From Ruminococcus sp. Phil11 (GTDB lineage: Bacteria; Bacillota; Clostridia; Oscillospirales; Ruminococcaceae), in assembly GCA_001940925.1 (NCBI GenBank), contig MSGZ01000006.1:1-64000 (forward strand): DNA of 64,000 bases. Direction: 5' to 3'. Below, one piece after another: positions 6,042 through 23,901 of the stretch (positions are counted from its first letter, which is position 1; every line of letters starts with the position of its first letter). The translations under genes and the position numbers were made by a program. The notes beneath the pieces were generated by a model. The model did no database searches. It was given only the letters and a program-made list of their open reading frames with translations, and was not told the origin of the DNA.

Positions 6042-7557
6042 TGAAAAGACGCCGCTGACCGACGGCGGGCAGGAGGCTGCGGAGGAGCTTGCAGAGGCTC
6101 TGAGCGAGACTGCTTCAGACGCAGCAGATACGGCAGCGGATGCGGCAAAGTCCGCTTCGGATGAGGCTGCTGCGGAGGTGGAGGCGATCGTGCAGGATGC
6201 ATTGGCGGCAACGGACAATGCAGAAGCTGCCGCACCTGTTTCTGAGGCAGAGAAGCCGGCGGAAAAGCCGGCACCGCGGAAGAAGCCTGCCAAAAAAACC
6301 GGGCTCGCCGGACTGCTCCCGCAGAAGAAAAAAAAGAAGCGTCCGCGCAAGCGCACCATTGAGGATGAGCTTGCAGACCTTGCGGCAGAGGAAGCCGCAT
6401 TCGATGCATGGGGCAGACCGATTAAGAAAAAGAAGAAGAAAAAGCGCAGAAAGACCCGCAAGCTTTCCTGCACGCTCGTGCTGCTGACGCTGATCCTTGC
6501 GCTGTCCTCGGTACTGTCTGTCGTCATCCTTGCCGTTGCAAAGGAAATGTACGGCATTGAAAAGTCCGTTGACAAGAAGGTCATCAACATCCCGAACAAT
6601 GTCGGTACGCAGGCGATCGCGGAGCAGCTGGTGGATGAGGGTCTGATCTCCATGCCGATGATGTTCCGTCTGGTTTCCCGTATGAACCACATGGACGGCA
6701 AATATATCGCCGGCGACCATATCCTCACGGCGAGCATGTCCTACGAAACGATGATCGAGGAGCTCTGCACGACGGATGAAGAAGGCGGCCGTGAATACCA
6801 CAGCTTCACGATCTACGAGGGCGAGACGCTGATGAGCGTTGCAAAGCGTCTGGAAGAAAACGAATTCGTCAGAAGTGCGGATAAGTTCCTGTTCTACTTC
6901 AACAGCGGCGGCTACAACCTCTTTGAGTTTGAAAAGCATCTGCCGGAGAAATCTGCGCTGAAATTCCAGCAGATGGAAGGCTACTGCTTCCCGGATACCT
7001 ATCAGTTCTATATCAACGAGGATCCGAGCATCGTGGCGCAGAAGATCTACGCGAACTTTGATTCCAAGCTGTCCGAGGACGACTATAAGCGGATGAACGA
7101 GCTCAACATGTCTCTGGATGAGCTCATCACGCTGGCCTCCATGATCGAGGCGGAAGCAGGCGGCAAGGAGTATATGACGCGCATTTCGTCGGTATTCCAC
7201 AACCGTCTGACGCACTCGGGCGAGTTCCCGAAGCTCCAGTCCGACCCGACCAAGAAATATGCAAGAGATGTCATCGAGCCGAATCTCGACCGCGAGAACG
7301 AGACAATGCTCACTGCATACAACACCTACGAGGGCAACGGTCTCCCGCCCGGCGCGATCTGCAACCCGGGACGCGACGCGATCGAAGCGGCACTGTATCC
7401 GGATACGACGCCGTATTTCTACTTCAACGCAAATATCGACACCGGTGAGACCTACTTCGCTCAGACCAATGAGGAGCATGAGCAGAATCTCGCGAAGGTC
7501 AGAGCGGATCAGGCGGCAGCCGATGCAGCGGCAAACGGCGAGAACCCGAATGGCTAA
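6034..7557 (+). CDS. mltG: Endolytic murein transglycosylase MltG
   Basis: 507-residue YceG/MltG protein. An Ala/Glu-rich and then Lys/Arg-rich cytosolic tail of about 143 residues precedes one membrane helix (about 144-170), and the extracellular YceG domain follows. ASMIEAEAGG places the catalytic Glu at about residue 372, and LQSDPT and AICNPG motifs are present. MltG cuts nascent glycan strands and so limits their length. The cytosolic tail is much longer than in E. coli MltG but similar extensions are common in Clostridia. GGAGG precedes the start. Its stop overlaps the next gene. Confidence 0.95.
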   Translation: MADEKTPLTDGGQEAAEELAEALSETASDAADTAADAAKSASDEAAAEVEAIVQDALAATDNAEAAAPVSEAEKPAEKPAPRKKPAKKTGLAGLLPQKKKKKRPRKRTIEDELADLAAEEAAFDAWGRPIKKKKKKKRRKTRKLSCTLVLLTLILALSSVLSVVILAVAKEMYGIEKSVDKKVINIPNNVGTQAIAEQLVDEGLISMPMMFRLVSRMNHMDGKYIAGDHILTASMSYETMIEELCTTDEEGGREYHSFTIYEGETLMSVAKRLEENEFVRSADKFLFYFNSGGYNLFEFEKHLPEKSALKFQQMEGYCFPDTYQFYINEDPSIVAQKIYANFDSKLSEDDYKRMNELNMSLDELITLASMIEAEAGGKEYMTRISSVFHNRLTHSGEFPKLQSDPTKKYARDVIEPNLDRENETMLTAYNTYEGNGLPPGAICNPGRDAIEAALYPDTTPYFYFNANIDTGETYFAQTNEEHEQNLAKVRADQAAADAAANGENPNG

Positions 7558-18400: not shown

Positions 18401-18836
18401 CCGGGCAAAGCTGCTTGAGGATCTGCCGGAGCTGCCCGATCTGCCGGAGGAGCGCGTTTCCAAAAAGCGTCCCGCACCGGAGGCCGCAAAGCCCGAGCCC
18501 AAATCCGCTGAAGCCAAGCCCGAGGATAGCAAGCCCGCGCCGAAGCCGGTTGAGGTGCCGGAAATCAAGCTGGTGGAACCGATCCCTGCAGAGCCGAAAA
18601 GCGATCTGCTGAGCGGGCTGCCGGATGTTCCGGAGCTGCCGCCGCGCAAGAAGCCGGCAAGAACGATCCGGCTGGATATCCCGATGATCGACGAGGTCAA
18701 GCCGATCAACATCCCGAAGGTGGACGAAGGCGCGCCGCCGCCGTTATCCGCAGAGGCAGAGCAGGAAAAGGACCCGTTTGCAGATGCCGATATCCACTGG
18801 AACAGCGACCAGACCACATTCACGATCCGTTTTTAA
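15480..18836 (+). CDS. BspA-like leucine-rich repeat protein, no signal peptide
   Basis: 1118 residues. About residues 10-760 are LRR_5/BspA repeats of roughly 23 residues (pattern AFxxCxxLxxVxIPxSVTxIGxxAF). About 770-1118 is a disordered Pro/Glu/Lys/Ala-rich tail. LRR_5 proteins are usually secreted, but this one starts MGFKIKNGVLLKYEGVSA with no signal peptide, membrane helix or anchor, so it is either cytosolic or exported in another way. The start follows AGGAGGCGC. Its 3' end is followed by the inverted pair of intergenic elements. Ligand unknown. Confidence 0.88.
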   Translation: MGFKIKNGVLLKYEGVSALERLKIRKQDETLAVPKNVSSIADEAFSMTEVSSIFLPPSVTVIGERAFALCADLQYVEFSEGLREIGTNAFDGCHVLRTAMLPDTCTTVGAWAFCNCGGLKSVRLSEKMESIPRGTFSGCSRLEEITVPASVEHIDNRAFYACTSLLKVNLTKGLRTIGREAFACCSAMSSIYIPETVTEIAEDAFAGCTELRNVIIPPSVTRLHPYAFGSENHIQTITTVTGSGAHQFALEHNILCYTEKEAAQLRGCNPAFSLEYGTLKKYTQEYNVRDIMIPDGVICIGKHAFEQNRQLVSVVIPEGVVEISSYAFNGCRSLQRVYLPSTLRRIGRFAFRDCSLLEVILPQGIETIEKNAFQGCTSMRRFYMPDTLKTLENEALRDCMSLSELRFSASLESVSEGVCVGCSSLRTAVIPEGPKYIQQNAFSGCSSLQEVFIPDSVVEVSGNAFAETPLFKMTAGHYIVGRFLIKADGYSPIPVGVHRIGPRAFERGGLRQAIIPEGVISIGDNAFANCGVLTDVVIPKTVTEIGVDAFAYTPWMTRRTEPYTVAGANILLRANVMTQKISIPVGVRCIAPSAFSQLPAKHIVIPNGVTHIQHGAFSYCEQLETVELPSTLRRLDGYLFHGCTKLSKVVFAPGPTKVGHAMFSSCLSLKTVTLPDTVTEIDNEAFYHAGIEKLVIPDGVTRIGQSAFSHCGHLTDILIPASVTEIAENAFTECPKFRVHADSGSYAERYAKQHHMMMTAVPINPAVFTEPEPEAVQPQQTAPVPQRRTDEPPAADPAFLWEKHEPADTEPAAAGKEQSAEPEKPVPAEEPKPKAAKKSAQKAEPPAEASEKPAEKEAAKPVGQEPVKAEEAKPEKAAEASAEPEPAPKKRRKTVTFDEEEEQNYAERIKRELEDARKNSVKADPKVKLPKLVEEPAEPPAPKQKKRRKKELTEEERELKLRAKETPEETKARHRAKLLEDLPELPDLPEERVSKKRPAPEAAKPEPKSAEAKPEDSKPAPKPVEVPEIKLVEPIPAEPKSDLLSGLPDVPELPPRKKPARTIRLDIPMIDEVKPINIPKVDEGAPPPLSAEAEQEKDPFADADIHWNSDQTTFTIRF

Positions 18837-18837
18837 C

Positions 18838-18962
18838 GGGGAGCCTCCGCGGGCGATTCCCTCCGGGGGCGGTGAGCGAAGTGCTCCCAGCGATCATAAC
18901 GCACGCCGCTGGACGCGGCTTCTGCGGCTTTGCTTCTCCCAATGCTGAAGCACGCCGGAAGT
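18838..18962 (-). repeat. Dispersed intergenic element, reverse copy
   Basis: Starts directly after the LRR stop. Reverse orientation of the common core (GGAGGGAA, GGTGAGCGAAG, CGCCGC, GCTTCT, CCCAATGCTGAAGCAC). It faces the forward copy at 19016 across a terminator. Confidence 0.8.
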
Positions 18963-18977
18963 ATAGCACAAAAACAT

Positions 18978-19013
18978 AAAAGGACGCCGACTGTTTTGTC
19001 AGCGTCCTTTTTG
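18978..19013 (+). terminator. GGACGC-type terminator between two element copies
   Basis: AAAAGGACGC pairs with GCGTCCTTTT; T-tracts lie on both sides, so it can end both the LRR transcript and minus-strand transcription. Confidence 0.85.
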
Positions 19014-19015
19014 TT

Positions 19016-19127
19016 TCAATATTGGGAAGCAGTAACTCCAAAGAAGCCGCCCCGCGGCGTGTGCTGCGAATATTGGGCGAGCTTCGCTCACTGCCCCCGG
19101 AGGGAATCGCCAGCGCGGGCTCCGCGC
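19016..19127 (+). repeat. Dispersed intergenic element, forward copy
   Basis: Core ATTGGGAAGCAGTAACTCC, AAAGAAGCCGCCCCGCGG, GAGCTTCGCTCACTGCCC and GGAGGGAA, ending in the triloop hairpin GCGCGG-GCT-CCGCGC (19113-19127). Confidence 0.8.
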
Positions 19128-19128
19128 A

Positions 19129-19157
19129 AGAAAGGCACAGCCGAAGCTGTGCCTTTC
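19129..19157 (-). terminator. Terminator of the dockerin protein gene
   Basis: GAAAGGCACAGC and GCTGTGCCTTTC form a 12-bp stem with a CGAA loop, 22 bases past the stop of the minus-strand gene; a short CTT run follows. Confidence 0.75.
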
Positions 19158-19178
19158 TGTGTTGCCTGTGAATCGGGA

Positions 19179-21545
19179 TTAGCCCTCTTCCGGAAGTGCG
19201 CCTCTCAGACCAAGGTACTCAGATGCCCAGGTATCATAGGTCAGCGGCTCCTTGTGGAGCTCATCCATCGGAACGACCTTCTTGCCGACGATCTTCTCGT
19301 CATCCCAGTTCTTGTCGTAGTTCTTTGCAACCGTGATCTCGGTGTAGTATCTCAGGATATCCTGAACGTCCTCAACGGAGATCTCGCCGTTGCCGTCAGC
19401 AACGTCCATTGCATAGTGAGAATACGGGAAGTATGCTTCCTGCATCTCGCCCAGCGTGTTGTTGTAGAGGTACTTATCATCCTTCAGCAGGACAGATGCC
19501 TTTCTCTTAGCAACAGCAGTTTCCGTGTAGTAAACCAGTGCGAGCTGGACGTCTTCGACGGAGACTTCGCCGTTCAGGTCGGTATCGCCGCGGAGGACGA
19601 GGTAAACCGTGAACTTGCCTGCTCTCAGACCTTCCTTGATGCCTTCCTGCTCGATCAGAGCATCGTCATAGCCGGCATCCTTGATTGCCTTCTGGACAGC
19701 AGCAGCGTCCTTCAGGACAAAGTAAGCAGAAGAAGCAGAGCAGCCGACATCCTTCGGCATGGTCATTTCAGACGGGCTGGTGAACTCAGGCTTGAATGCA
19801 TCGGTGACTTCGACAGTCTTTGCAGGCTGCTCGACGCCGCTCTCGTAGAAGTGCAGGGAAACGCTCAGGCCGGACAGATCGAACTTGCCGTCCTCCTCGG
19901 ACCAGTAGACATAACCCTTGTCCTCGATGCCCTTGAACTCGAAGGAAACGTAGGTTGCCGGCGTGGTGGAGGTAACAGGTGTCTCAGAAGTGGTAGAGGT
20001 CACAGGAGCGGTGGTCTCAGAACCGGAAACTGTGGTCTCAGTGCCGGAAACAGTGGTCTCAGTACCGGAGACTGTGGTCTCGGTGCCGGAAACTGTGGTC
20101 TCAGTGCCGGAGACTGTGGTCCCGGTGCCGGAAGCAGTGGTCTCGGTACCGGTGACGTCGGTCTTTGCTTCCGTGGTGGTCGTCGTGGACGGAGCCGGCT
20201 CGGAAGTGGTGGTGGTGGTGATTGCCTCGGTCTCGATGGTGATGATACGCTCAACATCGTAGAATGCGGAGCCCTTCATGCCGTAATCGGACTCACCCTT
20301 TGCGGTGATCTTCTTTGCGGACTTGAAGGAAACGAGCTTCTTGTTCTCAGCAGCGAGCTTCTCCTCGATCGCAGCCTTGACCTCGTCAGCCTTGTCGTCC
20401 TCGATCTCGAGGATTGCTTCTGCGGTGTAGCCGTCGATCTTGTAGGAAGCGCTGGTTGCGTTCTCAACGATGCCCTGAATGTCAGAGAGCTTCAGCTGAA
20501 CATCAACGATGTCGCCGTAGTTTTTGCTGACGATGTCAACAGCTGCATCGTAGCAATCCTGAACTTTCTCATCCGTCCACACTGCGGAAGCGGTTGCCGG
20601 CTTCTCAGCGTTGAACTTGTTGATTGCCTTGTTGGTGTAGTACTCAGGAGCGTTGACGCTCTTTGCTGCCTCGATCAGCTTGTTGCTGTAATCGGTGTAG
20701 AGCGCGTCGATATCGGAAGCGGAAGCGGTGATCGCCTTCACAGCTTCGATCATTGCTGCGATGTAGCCCTCGCCGTTCTTTGCCTTCTTGACGTACTTGT
20801 CAACCTTCTCGTTGAACTTTGCGGTGTCGCCGCCGTTCTTTGCGCCTGCTTCCTTCAGAAGGGCAGCAGCCTCATCGACCTTTGCAAGAACGTACTCTTC
20901 AACAGCCTTGTAGTCCTTGTATTCCTTGCCGTTCTCGTCCTTGAGGGTGACCTCGTAGGAAACGGTCTTTGCATCGAAGTCAGTCTTGACATCGACGATC
21001 GCGGTGCACTTCAGGGTCAGCTTGGACCAGTCGACCACGACCGGCTTGCCGTTGAAGGTGACTTCCTTGCCGCCGTTCTGGATGCGCATCTCCTGCTCGA
21101 TCAGCTCGCCGCAGACCGGAGCGAGATCAGCGATCTCGATCGTTGCCTTGCCGTTTGCCTTGCCGTCGGTCTCGACCTTTGCCTCGGAAACAGCTGCGAG
21201 GATCTCATCAGCAGTTGCGGAGCTGACGCGGTCGGACTTCAGCATTGCCTTCTTTGCATACTTCTTGCCGCGGTCAAGGCCGACCGTGAAGCTCTTTGCG
21301 CCTGCAGTGAGGGCTGCAGCCTCCAGCTTGTCATTCCAGTCGGAATGCAGGCCGTTCCACGGGGTCTCTTCGTCGATCGGAACGAACAGGACAAACTCCT
21401 TGTCGATCGTTGTTGCGGAGCTTGCTGCAGCAGGTGCTTCATCAGCTGCGCTGACGTTCACAGTTGCTGCAACAGCGGAAAGCTGGCTCAGCACGAGAAT
21501 CGAACTGGAAGCGGCTGCGAGTGTACGCTTGAAAATTGATTTCAT
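19179..21545 (-). CDS. Secreted dockerin protein with Thr-rich linker
   Basis: 788 residues. A signal peptide (MKSIFKRTLAAASSSILVLS) leads into about 430 residues of unknown fold with helical stretches, then a low-complexity linker of TETTVSG heptads (about 19990-20220), a second globular region, and a C-terminal type I dockerin with two calcium loops, DTDLNGEVSVED and DVADGNGEISVED. The dockerin should dock it to a cohesin-bearing scaffold. No catalytic motif is recognised. AACAAAGGAGAGG precedes the start. It is a single-gene unit with its own promoter and terminator. Confidence 0.88.
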   Translation of the reverse strand: MKSIFKRTLAAASSSILVLSQLSAVAATVNVSAADEAPAAASSATTIDKEFVLFVPIDEETPWNGLHSDWNDKLEAAALTAGAKSFTVGLDRGKKYAKKAMLKSDRVSSATADEILAAVSEAKVETDGKANGKATIEIADLAPVCGELIEQEMRIQNGGKEVTFNGKPVVVDWSKLTLKCTAIVDVKTDFDAKTVSYEVTLKDENGKEYKDYKAVEEYVLAKVDEAAALLKEAGAKNGGDTAKFNEKVDKYVKKAKNGEGYIAAMIEAVKAITASASDIDALYTDYSNKLIEAAKSVNAPEYYTNKAINKFNAEKPATASAVWTDEKVQDCYDAAVDIVSKNYGDIVDVQLKLSDIQGIVENATSASYKIDGYTAEAILEIEDDKADEVKAAIEEKLAAENKKLVSFKSAKKITAKGESDYGMKGSAFYDVERIITIETEAITTTTTSEPAPSTTTTTEAKTDVTGTETTASGTGTTVSGTETTVSGTETTVSGTETTVSGTETTVSGSETTAPVTSTTSETPVTSTTPATYVSFEFKGIEDKGYVYWSEEDGKFDLSGLSVSLHFYESGVEQPAKTVEVTDAFKPEFTSPSEMTMPKDVGCSASSAYFVLKDAAAVQKAIKDAGYDDALIEQEGIKEGLRAGKFTVYLVLRGDTDLNGEVSVEDVQLALVYYTETAVAKRKASVLLKDDKYLYNNTLGEMQEAYFPYSHYAMDVADGNGEISVEDVQDILRYYTEITVAKNYDKNWDDEKIVGKKVVPMDELHKEPLTYDTWASEYLGLRGALPEEG

Positions 21546-21669
21546 TCTAACCTCTCCTTTGTTATGAAATGGATTATGTACGGGATGTGTCGCAGGTTCG
21601 GGCTGAAAGCGGGTCTGTTACAGCCTGTTTTCGATCCTTTCGTGTGCTGAGACACATATACATATTGAC

Positions 21670-21698
21670 ATTATAGCATTGTTCTGCCGAAATTGCAA
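21670..21698 (-). promoter_or_regulatory. Sigma-A promoter of the dockerin protein gene
   Basis: Minus strand: TTGCAA (21698-21693), 17 bases, TATAAT (21675-21670), leaving a leader of about 120 bases. Confidence 0.8.
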
Positions 21699-21917
21699 GC
21701 GATTTTTCATAAATTGTAAAGATTCAACAAAGTACATATTTTTGCTTATAAGCCTTTGGATATTTTATACACGCAATTTCCTGTTTTTTCCGCTGTTTCA
21801 CGGGAAAAACAGTGCCGTTTGAGGGTGCCTTTCTCGTCGTTTTGCACAAAATCCGTCACATATTGCGGATGTGTTATTGTTATCTGATAAATATATATAA
21901 AAATCGTATAAAAGCTA

Positions 21918-21946
21918 TTGACAAAATTGAAAATACGTGGTATAAT
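21918..21946 (+). promoter_or_regulatory. Strong sigma-A promoter of a short transcription unit
   Basis: Perfect consensus boxes TTGACA and TATAAT with a 17-base spacer, preceded by AT-rich DNA. No long gene follows; the transcript would run to the terminator at 22323. Confidence 0.88.
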
Positions 21947-21995
21947 ACAGACAAGAACAGAACAGAAACACCCAATCGAACAGGAGGCGTTACCA

Positions 21996-22004
21996 ATGGG
22001 CTGA
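21996..22004 (+). CDS. Two-codon micro-ORF (Met-Gly-stop)
   Basis: ATG GGC TGA behind an ideal AGGAGG (21982-21987), 8 bases away. It would act, if at all, by placing a ribosome on the RNA rather than through its product. Confidence 0.35.
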   Translation: MG

Positions 22005-22053
22005 CAGCAATATCTGCAAGATTCAATCACAGAAAAGAAAGGATGTGCTTCCG

Positions 22054-22077
22054 ATGCAGAGGGCATTCGACGGATAG
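22054..22077 (+). CDS. Seven-residue micro-ORF
   Basis: Encodes MQRAFDG behind AAAGGATGTGCTTCCG. Candidate leader-type peptide; no similarity recognised. Confidence 0.35.
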   Translation: MQRAFDG

Positions 22078-22140
22078 AATCCGGCAACAAAATGACGATC
22101 CTGAAAGCGATCGGATCTCAGAATAAAGGATGTGTTACCG

Positions 22141-22152
22141 ATGACCAGGTAA
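22141..22152 (+). CDS. Three-residue micro-ORF
   Basis: Encodes MTR behind AAAGGATGTGTTACCG. In another frame, an ATG at 22092 opens a 63-codon reading that runs through this site to 22283 and ends together with the 24-residue peptide, but that ATG has no ribosome site. Confidence 0.3.
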   Translation: MTR

Positions 22153-22208
22153 GCGGTTCCGTGGATACGGAAAACAGCAGGAAATATACAAGAAAGGATG
22201 TGAGTCCG

Positions 22209-22283
22209 ATGCCGGTCTCCGAAGGACAGCACAGCGGAAGGTGTGGTATAGGCCGGAAGCCGTGCGGTGAACTGAAAAGCTGA
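22209..22283 (+). CDS. 24-residue peptide with two cysteines
   Basis: Encodes a basic, Gly-rich peptide (MPVSEGQHSGRCG, then IGRKPCGELKS) behind AAAGGATGTGAGTCCG. It is the last and longest of the iterated units and its stop lies within the first arm of the terminator. Two Cys seven residues apart could form a disulfide. No family recognised. Confidence 0.45.
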   Translation: MPVSEGQHSGRCGIGRKPCGELKS

Positions 22284-22323
22284 CAGCTCTGTCACCCGTG
22301 CAGGCAGGGCTGTCAGCTTTTTT
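22278..22323 (+). terminator. Strong intrinsic terminator of the micro-ORF unit
   Basis: AGCTGACAGC and GCTGTCAGCT flank a loop that can pair further (CCCGTGCAGGCAGGG); TTTTTT follows. Confidence 0.88.
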
Positions 22324-22347
22324 GTGCACCGGAATATGCAGATGAAA

Positions 22348-22381: not shown

Positions 22382-23194
22382 TTACATGTTTTTCGAGGCG
22401 TAGCCGGACCAGCTTCTGTCGCGTGAGAGTGCGCCGCCTGCGGTGAACACCTGATAGCAGGAGGCATCCTCGCGGAGGAACGCGTCAAACCATGCGGTCA
22501 TGTAGCCGGAATATGAACCGGGGCTCGTGCAGCATTTGGTATGCCCCGCACCCTTGAGGCTCGCGTAAACGGCGGTCGAATGGGTGCTGTTATACGCAGG
22601 CTTGACATACCGCGAAGCCGGGACGATCCAGTCCGAGCCGCCCGTCGCATAGAATACCGGAACGGTCAGCTGTGCGGCGCTGCCGGTCTGGACATTGCCC
22701 GCGATCGTGAACACGCAGTCGATGCGGGCATCGGCGGCCGCAGCGTTGACGGAGCTCATTCCGCCCTGCGAATGTCCCGCCGCGCCGATGTGTTCGAGGT
22801 CGGCCTTGCCGTAAAAGACGCTGCCTGCGTCGTAATTTTCCGCGGTGATGAAGTCGATCGAGGCGCGCTGTGCATTGCCGTTTCCGGCGAACAGTTCGCG
22901 GTTTGCAACAACGATATAGCCGTCAGCGGCGAGATCGGACAGCAGCCCGTAGTAGAGCGCGGGCGCACACATGGTACCGTTCGCCCAGACGATGACCGGA
23001 TAGGTCGTTTCATCCTGCACGAGCAGGCTTTCCGGATAAAAAACGATGTGGCCGTCACCGAGCTGGTCGTCGCAGATGACCCCGCCGCTGTTATAAGAAG
23101 CCGCGGAGGCCGGTGCTGCTGCAGCCGGAACGGAGAGCGCGCAGATCACGCCTGCAAGCAGTGTGCTGATGATGCGTTTCGTCTTTTGTTTCAT
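22382..23194 (-). CDS. Secreted alpha/beta hydrolase (cutinase/chlorophyllase-like)
   Basis: 270 residues. A signal peptide (MKQKTKRIISTLLAGVICAL) is followed by an alpha/beta-hydrolase domain with the nucleophile elbow GHSQGG, an acid in GGSDWIVP and a His in GAGHTKCC. This plan fits secreted esterases or lipases of the dienelactone hydrolase/cutinase type, possibly acting on plant cell-wall or lipid esters, but the substrate cannot be set. Two Cys adjoin the catalytic His and another (ASCYQ) lies near the end, so disulfides are possible. AGAAAGGATG precedes the start. Confidence 0.85.
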   Translation of the reverse strand: MKQKTKRIISTLLAGVICALSVPAAAAPASAASYNSGGVICDDQLGDGHIVFYPESLLVQDETTYPVIVWANGTMCAPALYYGLLSDLAADGYIVVANRELFAGNGNAQRASIDFITAENYDAGSVFYGKADLEHIGAAGHSQGGMSSVNAAAADARIDCVFTIAGNVQTGSAAQLTVPVFYATGGSDWIVPASRYVKPAYNSTHSTAVYASLKGAGHTKCCTSPGSYSGYMTAWFDAFLREDASCYQVFTAGGALSRDRSWSGYASKNM

Positions 23195-23290: not shown

Positions 23291-23344
23291 TCTTGTCAGC
23301 AAAAAAGTTGTATTGTGTCTGAGAAGTACCCGCCCGGCTGCGAA

Positions 23345-23572
23345 AATTGGACGCCGATTGCAGCATCAGCGTCCTTTTTCGTTATACTTCCGGCGTGCTT
23401 CAGCACTGGGGGAAGAAGCGCTAAAGAAGCCGCTCCGCGGCGTGTACTGCGAAAAATGGGAGAGCTTCGCTCACCGCCCCCGGAGGGAAATGCCTGCGGG
23501 CGTTGCCCGCCCGGAGGGAAACGGCTGTCGGCCCTGCCGACCCGAAGGAAAATGCCAGCGCGGGCTCCGCGC
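23345..23572 (+). repeat. Dispersed intergenic element, forward, with three hairpin modules
   Basis: Begins with the GGACGC/GCGTCC stem and T-run (23349-23379), then the core (GCTTCAGCACTGGGGG, AAAGAAGCCGCTCCGCGG, GAGAGCTTCGCTCACCGCCC) and three modules, each GGAGGGAAA-like plus a triloop hairpin: GCGGGC-GTT-GCCCGC (23496), GTCGGC-CCT-GCCGAC (23527), GCGCGG-GCT-CCGCGC (23558). Fullest copy in the window. Confidence 0.85.
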
Positions 23573-23608
23573 AAAAAAGCCGCTCTCCTTGCGGAAAGCG
23601 GCTTTTTT
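23573..23608 (-). terminator. rpsT terminator
   Basis: AAAAAAGCCGCT and AGCGGCTTTTTT pair; the minus strand ends in six T after the stem. Confidence 0.88.
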
Positions 23609-23628
23609 CATAACATTGTCGGTCCGAA

Positions 23629-23901
23629 TCAGCTTGCCTTGTTCAGAAGCTTCATCAGCTGAGACTTCTTTCTTGCGGCATTGTTCTTGTGCAGGATGCC
23701 CTTAGCACATGCCTGATCCACGCGCTTGATCGCGTAGCGGATCACGGTCTCGCGGTCAGTGCCGCCGACGTATGCCTTCTTGATCGCGGTCTTCAGTGCG
23801 GACTTGGTTGCCTTGTTCCGCGCTGCACGGATCTTATTGGTCTTGTCTCTCTTTTCCGGTGTCGGGCGCTTCTTCGGCCCAGCGTTCTTTGCAGCTGCCA
23901 T
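23629..23901 (-). CDS. rpsT: Small ribosomal subunit protein bS20
   Basis: 90-residue, Lys/Arg/Ala-rich helical protein, starting MAAAKNAGPKKRPTPEKRDK and ending with RKKSQLMKLLNKAS, typical of S20, which binds 16S rRNA early in 30S assembly. The start at 23901 follows AAAAGGAG; the longer frame to 23976 runs through the leader and is rejected. It is divergent from gpr, the usual arrangement in spore-forming Firmicutes. Confidence 0.96.
   Translation of the reverse strand: MAAAKNAGPKKRPTPEKRDKTNKIRAARNKATKSALKTAIKKAYVGGTDRETVIRYAIKRVDQACAKGILHKNNAARKKSQLMKLLNKAS

Follow-up and report, generated by a model that had tools for sequence, protein, structure and literature searches.

A small genus-wide unit in Ruminococcus sp. 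Phil11 that seems to be a series of ribosome landing sites with very short frames behind them

The unit and its surroundings

The window analysed here is the whole 64,000-nucleotide stretch from the start of contig MSGZ01000006.1 of Ruminococcus sp. Phil11. On its forward strand, positions 21918 to 22331 hold a unit, counted from promoter to terminator, that seems to be a small gene made up of nothing but ribosome landing sites in series, each with a few codons and a stop. The original prediction placed a perfect promoter and a strong terminator around about 380 bases without an ordinary gene, and both a promoter scan and the terminator arms confirm this. The promoter (21918-21946, +) is of the extended −10 type, TTGACA-17-TATAAT with TG before the −10 hexamer, and matches the consensus at 12 of 12 positions. 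It follows an AT-rich stretch (21873-21917, +) that resembles, and may act as, an UP element; A/T-rich sequence likewise precedes the promoter in other loci. The leader between the promoter and the start regions is A-rich. The unit closes with a predicted terminator hairpin (22265-22331, +) whose arms, 22265-22291 and 22305-22331, are 85% complementary and enclose the loop CCCGTGCAG, and which carries a T run.

Between these boundaries lie four initiation regions, just as predicted, with starts at 21996, 22054, 22141 and 22209 that open frames of 2, 7, 3 and 24 codons. Three of them are indeed nearly identical, being copies of AAAGGATGTGnnnCCGATG at 22038, 22125 and 22193; the fourth is AGGAGGCGTTACCA-ATG at 21996. 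Module 1 (21983-22004, +) consists of GGAGGCGTTACCA followed by ATG GGC TGA, a candidate fMet-Gly-stop minigene whose 2-codon frame is ATGGGCTGA. Module 2 (22038-22077, +) joins AAAGGATGTGCTTCCG to the 7-codon frame MQRAFDG* at 22054-22077, and module 3 (22125-22152, +) joins AAAGGATGTGTTACCG to ATG ACC AGG TAA (MTR*) at 22141-22152. Module 4 (22193-22283, +) carries AAAGGATGTGAGTCCG and the 24-codon frame 22209-22283, which ends at the foot of the terminator and is not conserved between clades. Allowing up to two mismatches, AAAGGATGTGnnnCCGATG matches the window three times where 0.06 matches are expected, and none of 100 shuffles reaches three. The looser form AAGGRYGTGNNNCCNATG occurs three times in the 3.7 Mb genome, always in this unit, and its reversed control does not occur.

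The stop codon of module 2 lies in a predicted hairpin (22071-22083, +), which can be drawn as CGGAT[AGA]ATCCG or as CGGA[TAGAA]TCCG and for which there is covariation. In 17 of 21 module-2 stretches the end of the frame is predicted to pair with a segment downstream and so enclose the stop in a stem at least as stable as −2 kcal/mol, while the hairpin is weak or missing in L012, L018, L022 and L066. Over 21 loci the arms of the same locus give a mean of −5.5 kcal/mol, as opposed to −2.6 kcal/mol for swapped arms, and in none of 2000 swaps is the former value reached. At the wobble position of the Gly codon the pair is A-U, U-A, C-G or G-C, depending on the locus. We also considered a stop codon inside a hairpin as a rule for every module, and rejected it: the arrangement is clear in module 2 only.

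Two readings of the unit as an ordinary small gene fared less well. The longer frame 22092-22283 (63 aa), put forward originally as the rival candidate for the real gene, extends the module-4 frame upstream and is not general. The frame of the last module is open for at least 39 codons upstream in 6 of 24 loci (the window, L010, L012, L013, L018 and L066) and closed within 31 codons in the other 18. The comparison also speaks against a small gene for a Cys-containing peptide preceded by leaders, since the last frame varies between clades; of its two cysteines, L010 has Tyr in place of one and L013 has Ser in place of the other. Separately, we tried and rejected coding upstream of the ATG (the K-D/G-V-x-P-M reading): that frame is closed within 30 nt upstream in 45% of the 88 modules defined below, no better than the other frames.

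The divergent partner of the unit (19179-21545, −) encodes a genus-specific protein of 788 aa, which from its sequence we read as secreted and as dockerin-like at its C-terminus. The protein matches no Pfam family at cut-off and none from NCBIfam. Its N-terminal part is found in 28 of 30 genomes of the genus and in none of 41 genomes of other genera. In G017 the match begins only at residue 206, though the gene start is seen there; G004 gives no match, and G025 matches in the dockerin region only. The predicted promoter of this gene is TTGCAA-17-TATAAT (21670-21698, −), and recurring boxes, TTTGTTGAATCTTTACAATTTG, lie upstream of its −35 hexamer. The leader of the gene (21546-21663, −) and those of its relatives have recurring ends, AUGUAUAUGUG...GUACAUAAU, that are able to close a stem, and the region of the gene start is nearly constant (AAGGAGAGGUUUGA). 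The leader is possibly regulated or structured.

The gene downstream of the unit varies between loci; in the window the next gene lies on the opposite strand. Nearby, the same promoter scan finds a second 12-of-12 promoter (23290-23262), above a gene for a PETase-like hydrolase (22382-23194, −; Pfam PF12740) that scores far below the cut-off of the NCBIfam BHET hydrolase model. In addition, short frames in 18820-19171 and 23296-23705 share similar strings (ASALGE..., PRRE...), suggesting a repeated intergenic element.

Conservation in the genus, and what is conserved

The search for the motif in related genomes that had been proposed with the original prediction finds it in 28 of 30 genomes of the genus. 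A DNA search finds similar sequence in 21 of the 30, and at least one of these matches (G006, contig C107) is a different place. Some motif places lie on other contigs, namely all of those in G004 and single ones in G003, G008, G009, G011 and G029. At least one module stands divergent to the same secreted-protein gene in every one of the 27 testable genomes, that is, in all but G004, G025 and G019, where the gene starts 130 bases from the contig end. A gene start like MKSLFKRTLAAATGS is divergent to the unit in 25 of 25 loci. G003 (L123) has the same arrangement with a promoter and two modules; G011 has a single strict module, 440 bases from the divergent gene, to which our covariance model gives a weak score (18.3 bits, E 0.38). 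A matching promoter is present in 24 of 26 loci, the exceptions being L062 and L063, and a match to [CT][CT]CGTGCA follows the modules in 23 of 26, that of L066 being unlike a terminator. The unit is conserved across the genus at one locus. The relatives with matches are metagenome-assembled genomes labelled Oscillospiraceae, uncultured Ruminococcus or Clostridiales, several of them from rumen, omasum or horse faeces; among the 20 matching stretches of one scan, 11 belong to members of the genus and 9 to other organisms, the latter with one match each.

Module 1 consists of ATG-GGC, at most one further codon and a stop in 21 of the 22 loci compared, a set that lies apart from L064 and L123; in L066 it is ATG TGG TAA. 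The peptides of module 2 begin with MQ[KRE]Y in 13 loci, the window's own being different, and module 3 reads MYR* in L011, L012, L016, L017, L020 and L062.

For the counts that follow, we use 88 modules in the 24 loci whose promoter and gene start are both recognised, with 2 to 6 minigenes counted per RNA. This set excludes L062 and L063 (promoter unmatched) and L122 (gene start unrecognised by the pattern), as well as the first modules of L018, L022 and L061, which have another Shine-Dalgarno sequence (SD). The loci are related to each other, so the counts are not independent. The pattern that defines a module fixes G-G, G-Y-G, Y-Y and ATG, and both bases of the Y-Y are C in 88 of 88 modules. 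Each of the 64 frames that have another module after them reaches its stop ahead of that module, compared with 24 of 64 and 26 of 64 for the two other frames.

Identity between relatives was counted within five groups of our choosing, which together take in 19 of the 24 loci. It amounts to 92% from SD to ATG, 81% in stop codons, 71% in the leader, 68% in the terminator and 60% in the linkers, where the first two values are inflated because modules and stops are defined by their sequence, the pattern fixing ten of the SD-to-ATG positions. The module positions that the pattern leaves free are nonetheless 83% identical (764 of 923 comparisons), against 65% (3729 of 5771) for linkers and frames together; they exceed linkers and frames in five of the five groups, slightly in one (89 against 86%). 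In the frame bodies, identity at codon positions 1, 2 and 3 is 75.5, 74.3 and 72.7%, and in the last frames, which show a slight bias, it is 77.9, 81.8 and 74.8%. This pattern of identity is what one would expect if selection acts on initiation and early termination and hardly at all on the peptide sequence. The free-position identity, the codon-position rates and the frame-specific stops agree with the original suggestion that the initiation signals, rather than the coding sequence, matter. As judged from these comparisons, starts and early stops are selected and the peptides mostly are not.

The modules can be read as an extended complement, with one mismatch and one extra base, of AGAAAGGAGGUGAUCC, which we take to be the usual clostridial 16S tail; a search for the 16S 3' end itself gave no match in this genome assembly. 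The predicted duplex with the assumed tail has a median of −15.8 kcal/mol over the 88 modules, as opposed to −7.2 kcal/mol for 26 long frames of the window at their best ATG, a comparison that is biased both ways (an SD-like pattern served to select the modules, and some of the 26 frames are spurious) and that serves as illustration, not proof. None of the 88 modules contains AAGGAGGTG, and GGAGGTG is found in one, the first of L064. In full-length folding the SDs are predicted to be no more open than the rest of the RNA, with a mean unpaired value per SD mostly of 0.1 to 0.6.

Similar layouts outside the genus

A strict two-module pattern is found in 3 of 247 genomes of the family, all from the window's genus, and in none of 125 other genera, although within that sample the pattern also missed one of the four genus members. 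Viral contigs gave no exact match to the pattern, which speaks against a phage origin. A covariance model (R1), built from the leader to module 2 and omitting L010, L023 and L028 from 22 loci, detects one further genus among 128 genomes (G102, 34.7 bits, E 0.003). The order of elements in G102 is that of the window: a strong promoter, a AAAGACAAGAAAAGAG leader, AAAGGCGGTGATTCC-ATG with 22 codons, then AGTGAGTCC-ATG TAC ACC TGA, closed by a terminator-like hairpin. Two of three genomes of the genus of G102 are matched by DNA. We also note a single module in Clostridiales bacterium MO.B6_11 (L072, about 7258-7379, −; 19.4 bits, E 0.24 with the covariance model), with the 8-codon frame MQTEAASS* before the gene of a secreted-looking protein.

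A relaxed pattern, AAAGGNNGTGNNTCCRATG, is matched in 19 of 244 family genomes (13 of 126 genera; three matches for the reversed control) and in 23 of 257 genomes of the order (15 of 137 genera; one match for the reversed control). Outside the genus, the places in the family set open frames of at most 24 codons in 11 of 16 cases and long frames in 5 of 16; in the order set the frames have at most 24 codons in 15 of 23 cases, 35 to 88 codons in 4 and are long in 4. Taken together, frames of at most 24 codons follow 26 of 39 AAAGGNNGTGNNTCCRATG starts outside the genus, compared with 24 of 92 AGGAGG-type starts in the sequence examined (Fisher p=2.4e-5, uncorrected for kinship). Judged by eye, the layout looks like that of a stand-alone unit in G102, G191 and G257 (one genus), G115, G080, G041, G158 and G167 within the family, and in G383, G431, G284, G425, G305, G442 and G417 in other families. 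Other AAAGGNNGTGNNTCCRATG places are leaders before genes, for example before an Hsp20 gene in G195. On these sequence grounds, units of similar layout appear to occur elsewhere in the order.

Eight of the family loci were fetched. A 6S RNA lies within 1 kb, on the other strand, in five of them, from three genera (G102, G191, G257, G115 and G080), and none lies within 1 kb at G041, G158 and G167. The micro-ORF units near 6S RNA (less than 1 kb, three genera) are L127, L152, L154, L155 and L156, and a DUF1292 gene adjoining the unit is confirmed by Pfam in three of the five 6S RNA loci. In G167 (L153, 1182-1253) a 3-codon module, MHS*, is preceded by a RAGATH-18 RNA. A different family of the order has units divergent to an asparaginase or an iron-dependent alcohol dehydrogenase gene (L163, 1500-1960; L164-L167; L161), neighbours that Pfam confirms at L163 and L161; units of the L163 type contain a frame of 17 codons together with a CCGATGGGCATACCGATGGGTATGG-like segment, without any Rfam match. 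Finally, L168, L169 and L179 have the same start motif with leader frames of 22 to 35 codons (MGSTDTEA.../MGSTEIET...) directly before lipoprotein-like genes, and these look like attenuator leaders.

Interpretation

To our knowledge, the minigenes known so far are leaders of genes. The unit has the start codon, the strong SD and the very early in-frame stop of a minigene, but a terminator follows its modules, and no gene stands downstream of them within the predicted transcript. Other known RNAs share some of its features. The STAB-SD of cry3Aa mRNA (Agaisse and Lereclus, 1996, as cited in PMC8309854) is reportedly a lone SD in the leader of an mRNA, with no frame behind it; like the unit, it has a strong SD near the 5' end, which stabilises the RNA there, presumably by ribosome binding, whereas the SDs of the unit carry AUG and in-frame stops and repeat along the RNA. 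Dual-function sRNAs that contain a small ORF, such as RNAIII/hld and SR1, resemble the unit as stand-alone transcripts of similar size with a short frame, a promoter and a terminator, but they encode one conserved peptide instead of several very short and poorly conserved ones. CsrB/RsmZ sponge RNAs likewise are stand-alone RNAs with repeated GGA motifs; the unit differs in its CsrA-less genus and in the in-frame stop after each AUG. Rfam gives no match in the window at the gathering score (of four hits at E≤5, all far below that score, none is a Csr RNA), and over 19 related loci it gives three tRNAs only.

Further counterparts are the leader minigenes and mini-ORFs of EHEC LEE1 and LEE4, axe-txe mg2 and B. 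subtilis ycbK (PMC8708949). Such frames are, as in the unit, very short (2 to 6 codons, that of LEE4 behind a strong ribosome binding site), and translating them, or having ribosomes bound to them, changes the stability of the RNA or the translation of what lies downstream; in LEE4 the ribosome occupancy of the leader minigene is reported to protect the transcript, and the same is proposed for axe-txe. The leader minigenes described there act in cis on a downstream gene, whereas the unit has no downstream gene and its minigenes, arranged in tandem, make up the transcript. No description of such a unit was found in the open-access literature searched, which included portions of PMC8708949, PMC6429828, PMC8040213 and PMC8309854.

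The reading that we favour, and to which we give about an even chance, is that of a ribosome-engaging RNA of tandem minigenes, serving RNA protection, the capture of ribosomes or of the initiation machinery, or both. The very strong promoter would make an RNA of about 380 nt. At each module a 30S subunit would bind, by extended but imperfect pairing with the 3' tail of its 16S rRNA, begin translation at the AUG, and, after 2 to 27 codons, terminate, in module 2 inside the small hairpin. The peptides would be by-products, and the function would be ribosome occupancy. Most likely the ribosomes would shield an abundant regulatory RNA from RNases; in addition or instead, the RNA may sequester 30S subunits or initiation factors and thereby report on or damp translation. 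Genome comparison shows the conservation, the frame-specific early stops, the hairpin covariation and the fixed divergent position on which this reading draws; that the RNA is made and translated, and which effect of the bound ribosomes is the useful one, we infer.

Several alternatives have to be weighed against this. The unit might instead encode a trans-acting regulatory RNA whose repeated motif binds some RNA-binding protein that otherwise binds mRNA start regions, in the manner of CsrB/RsmZ though without CsrA. A GGA-containing repeat is indeed kept while the rest of the RNA drifts, and AUG and CC are kept beyond the needs of an SD; yet none of the 30 genus genomes has CsrA (PF02599), for which E. 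coli, B. subtilis and T. maritima, 3 of 14 control genomes, were positive, AAGGRYGTGNNNCCNATG is nowhere else in the genome in a search that covered this form only, and a protein site has no need of in-frame stops. We regard this explanation as unlikely. A related candidate, the RNA as a mimic of the start regions of a regulon, was dropped on finding no further exact copy in the genome; in relatives, a few motif matches precede long frames (L065, L067, L068). That the peptides themselves are the products, with the unit a micropeptide operon for MG, MQKYSxG, MYR and a last peptide of up to 27 aa, would explain why frames are maintained and why MQ[KRE]Y recurs at the start of module 2, but it sits poorly with codon positions 1, 2 and 3 changing nearly alike in the frame bodies (the last frames being slightly biased), with a last peptide that varies between clades, and with several products of 1 to 3 residues; moreover, hairpin pairing accounts for the wobble of the module 2 Gly codon. 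A micropeptide operon seems to us quite unlikely, though the recurrence of MQ[KRE]Y, MYR and MG means that peptide or codons may still play a part.

The constant position of the unit raises the question of an action in cis, by which it would tune the divergent secreted-protein gene through transcription (supercoiling) or through the RNA itself. The divergent neighbour is the same gene in all 27 testable genomes while the downstream gene is inconstant, and that neighbour is likewise specific to the genus. On the other side, there is no signal of cognate pairing, the mean rank being 0.52 among 22 loci in a coarse test that allowed unlimited duplexes, and units of similar layout in other genera adjoin other genes; we see only a small chance for this explanation. 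One specific form of it, pairing of GGATGTG with CACATCC in the leader of the divergent mRNA, was rejected, as CACATC is present in part of the loci only and the cognate rank is the same 0.52. Lastly, the linkers do drift freely, as they would in a neutral remnant or a chance series of start-like sites, but such an origin is contradicted by the motif count relative to chance, the frame-specific stops, the conservation of the modules and their presence throughout the genus, and we hold it to be extremely improbable.

Returning to the ribosome-engaging RNA, its range may be wider than the genus. We suggest, tentatively and as something that could well prove wrong, an order-wide class of RNA genes whose working content would be translation initiation as such. 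They would be stand-alone transcripts in which one to six minigenes stand behind imperfect, extended complements of the 16S tail and hold or count ribosomes, as translation-state RNAs. The settings of such a class would be the secreted-protein gene in the window's genus, 6S RNA in three other genera, and the asparaginase or iron-dependent alcohol dehydrogenase gene in another family.

A conserved transcript made of little but minigenes would mean selection on initiation events without a product. If the favoured reading is true, the unit would be a natural and testable case in which ribosomes protect the RNA that they sit on or are titrated by it. The signature of AAAGGNNGTGNNTCCRATG with an early stop may, in turn, offer a simple way to find unannotated small transcripts in related gut bacteria.
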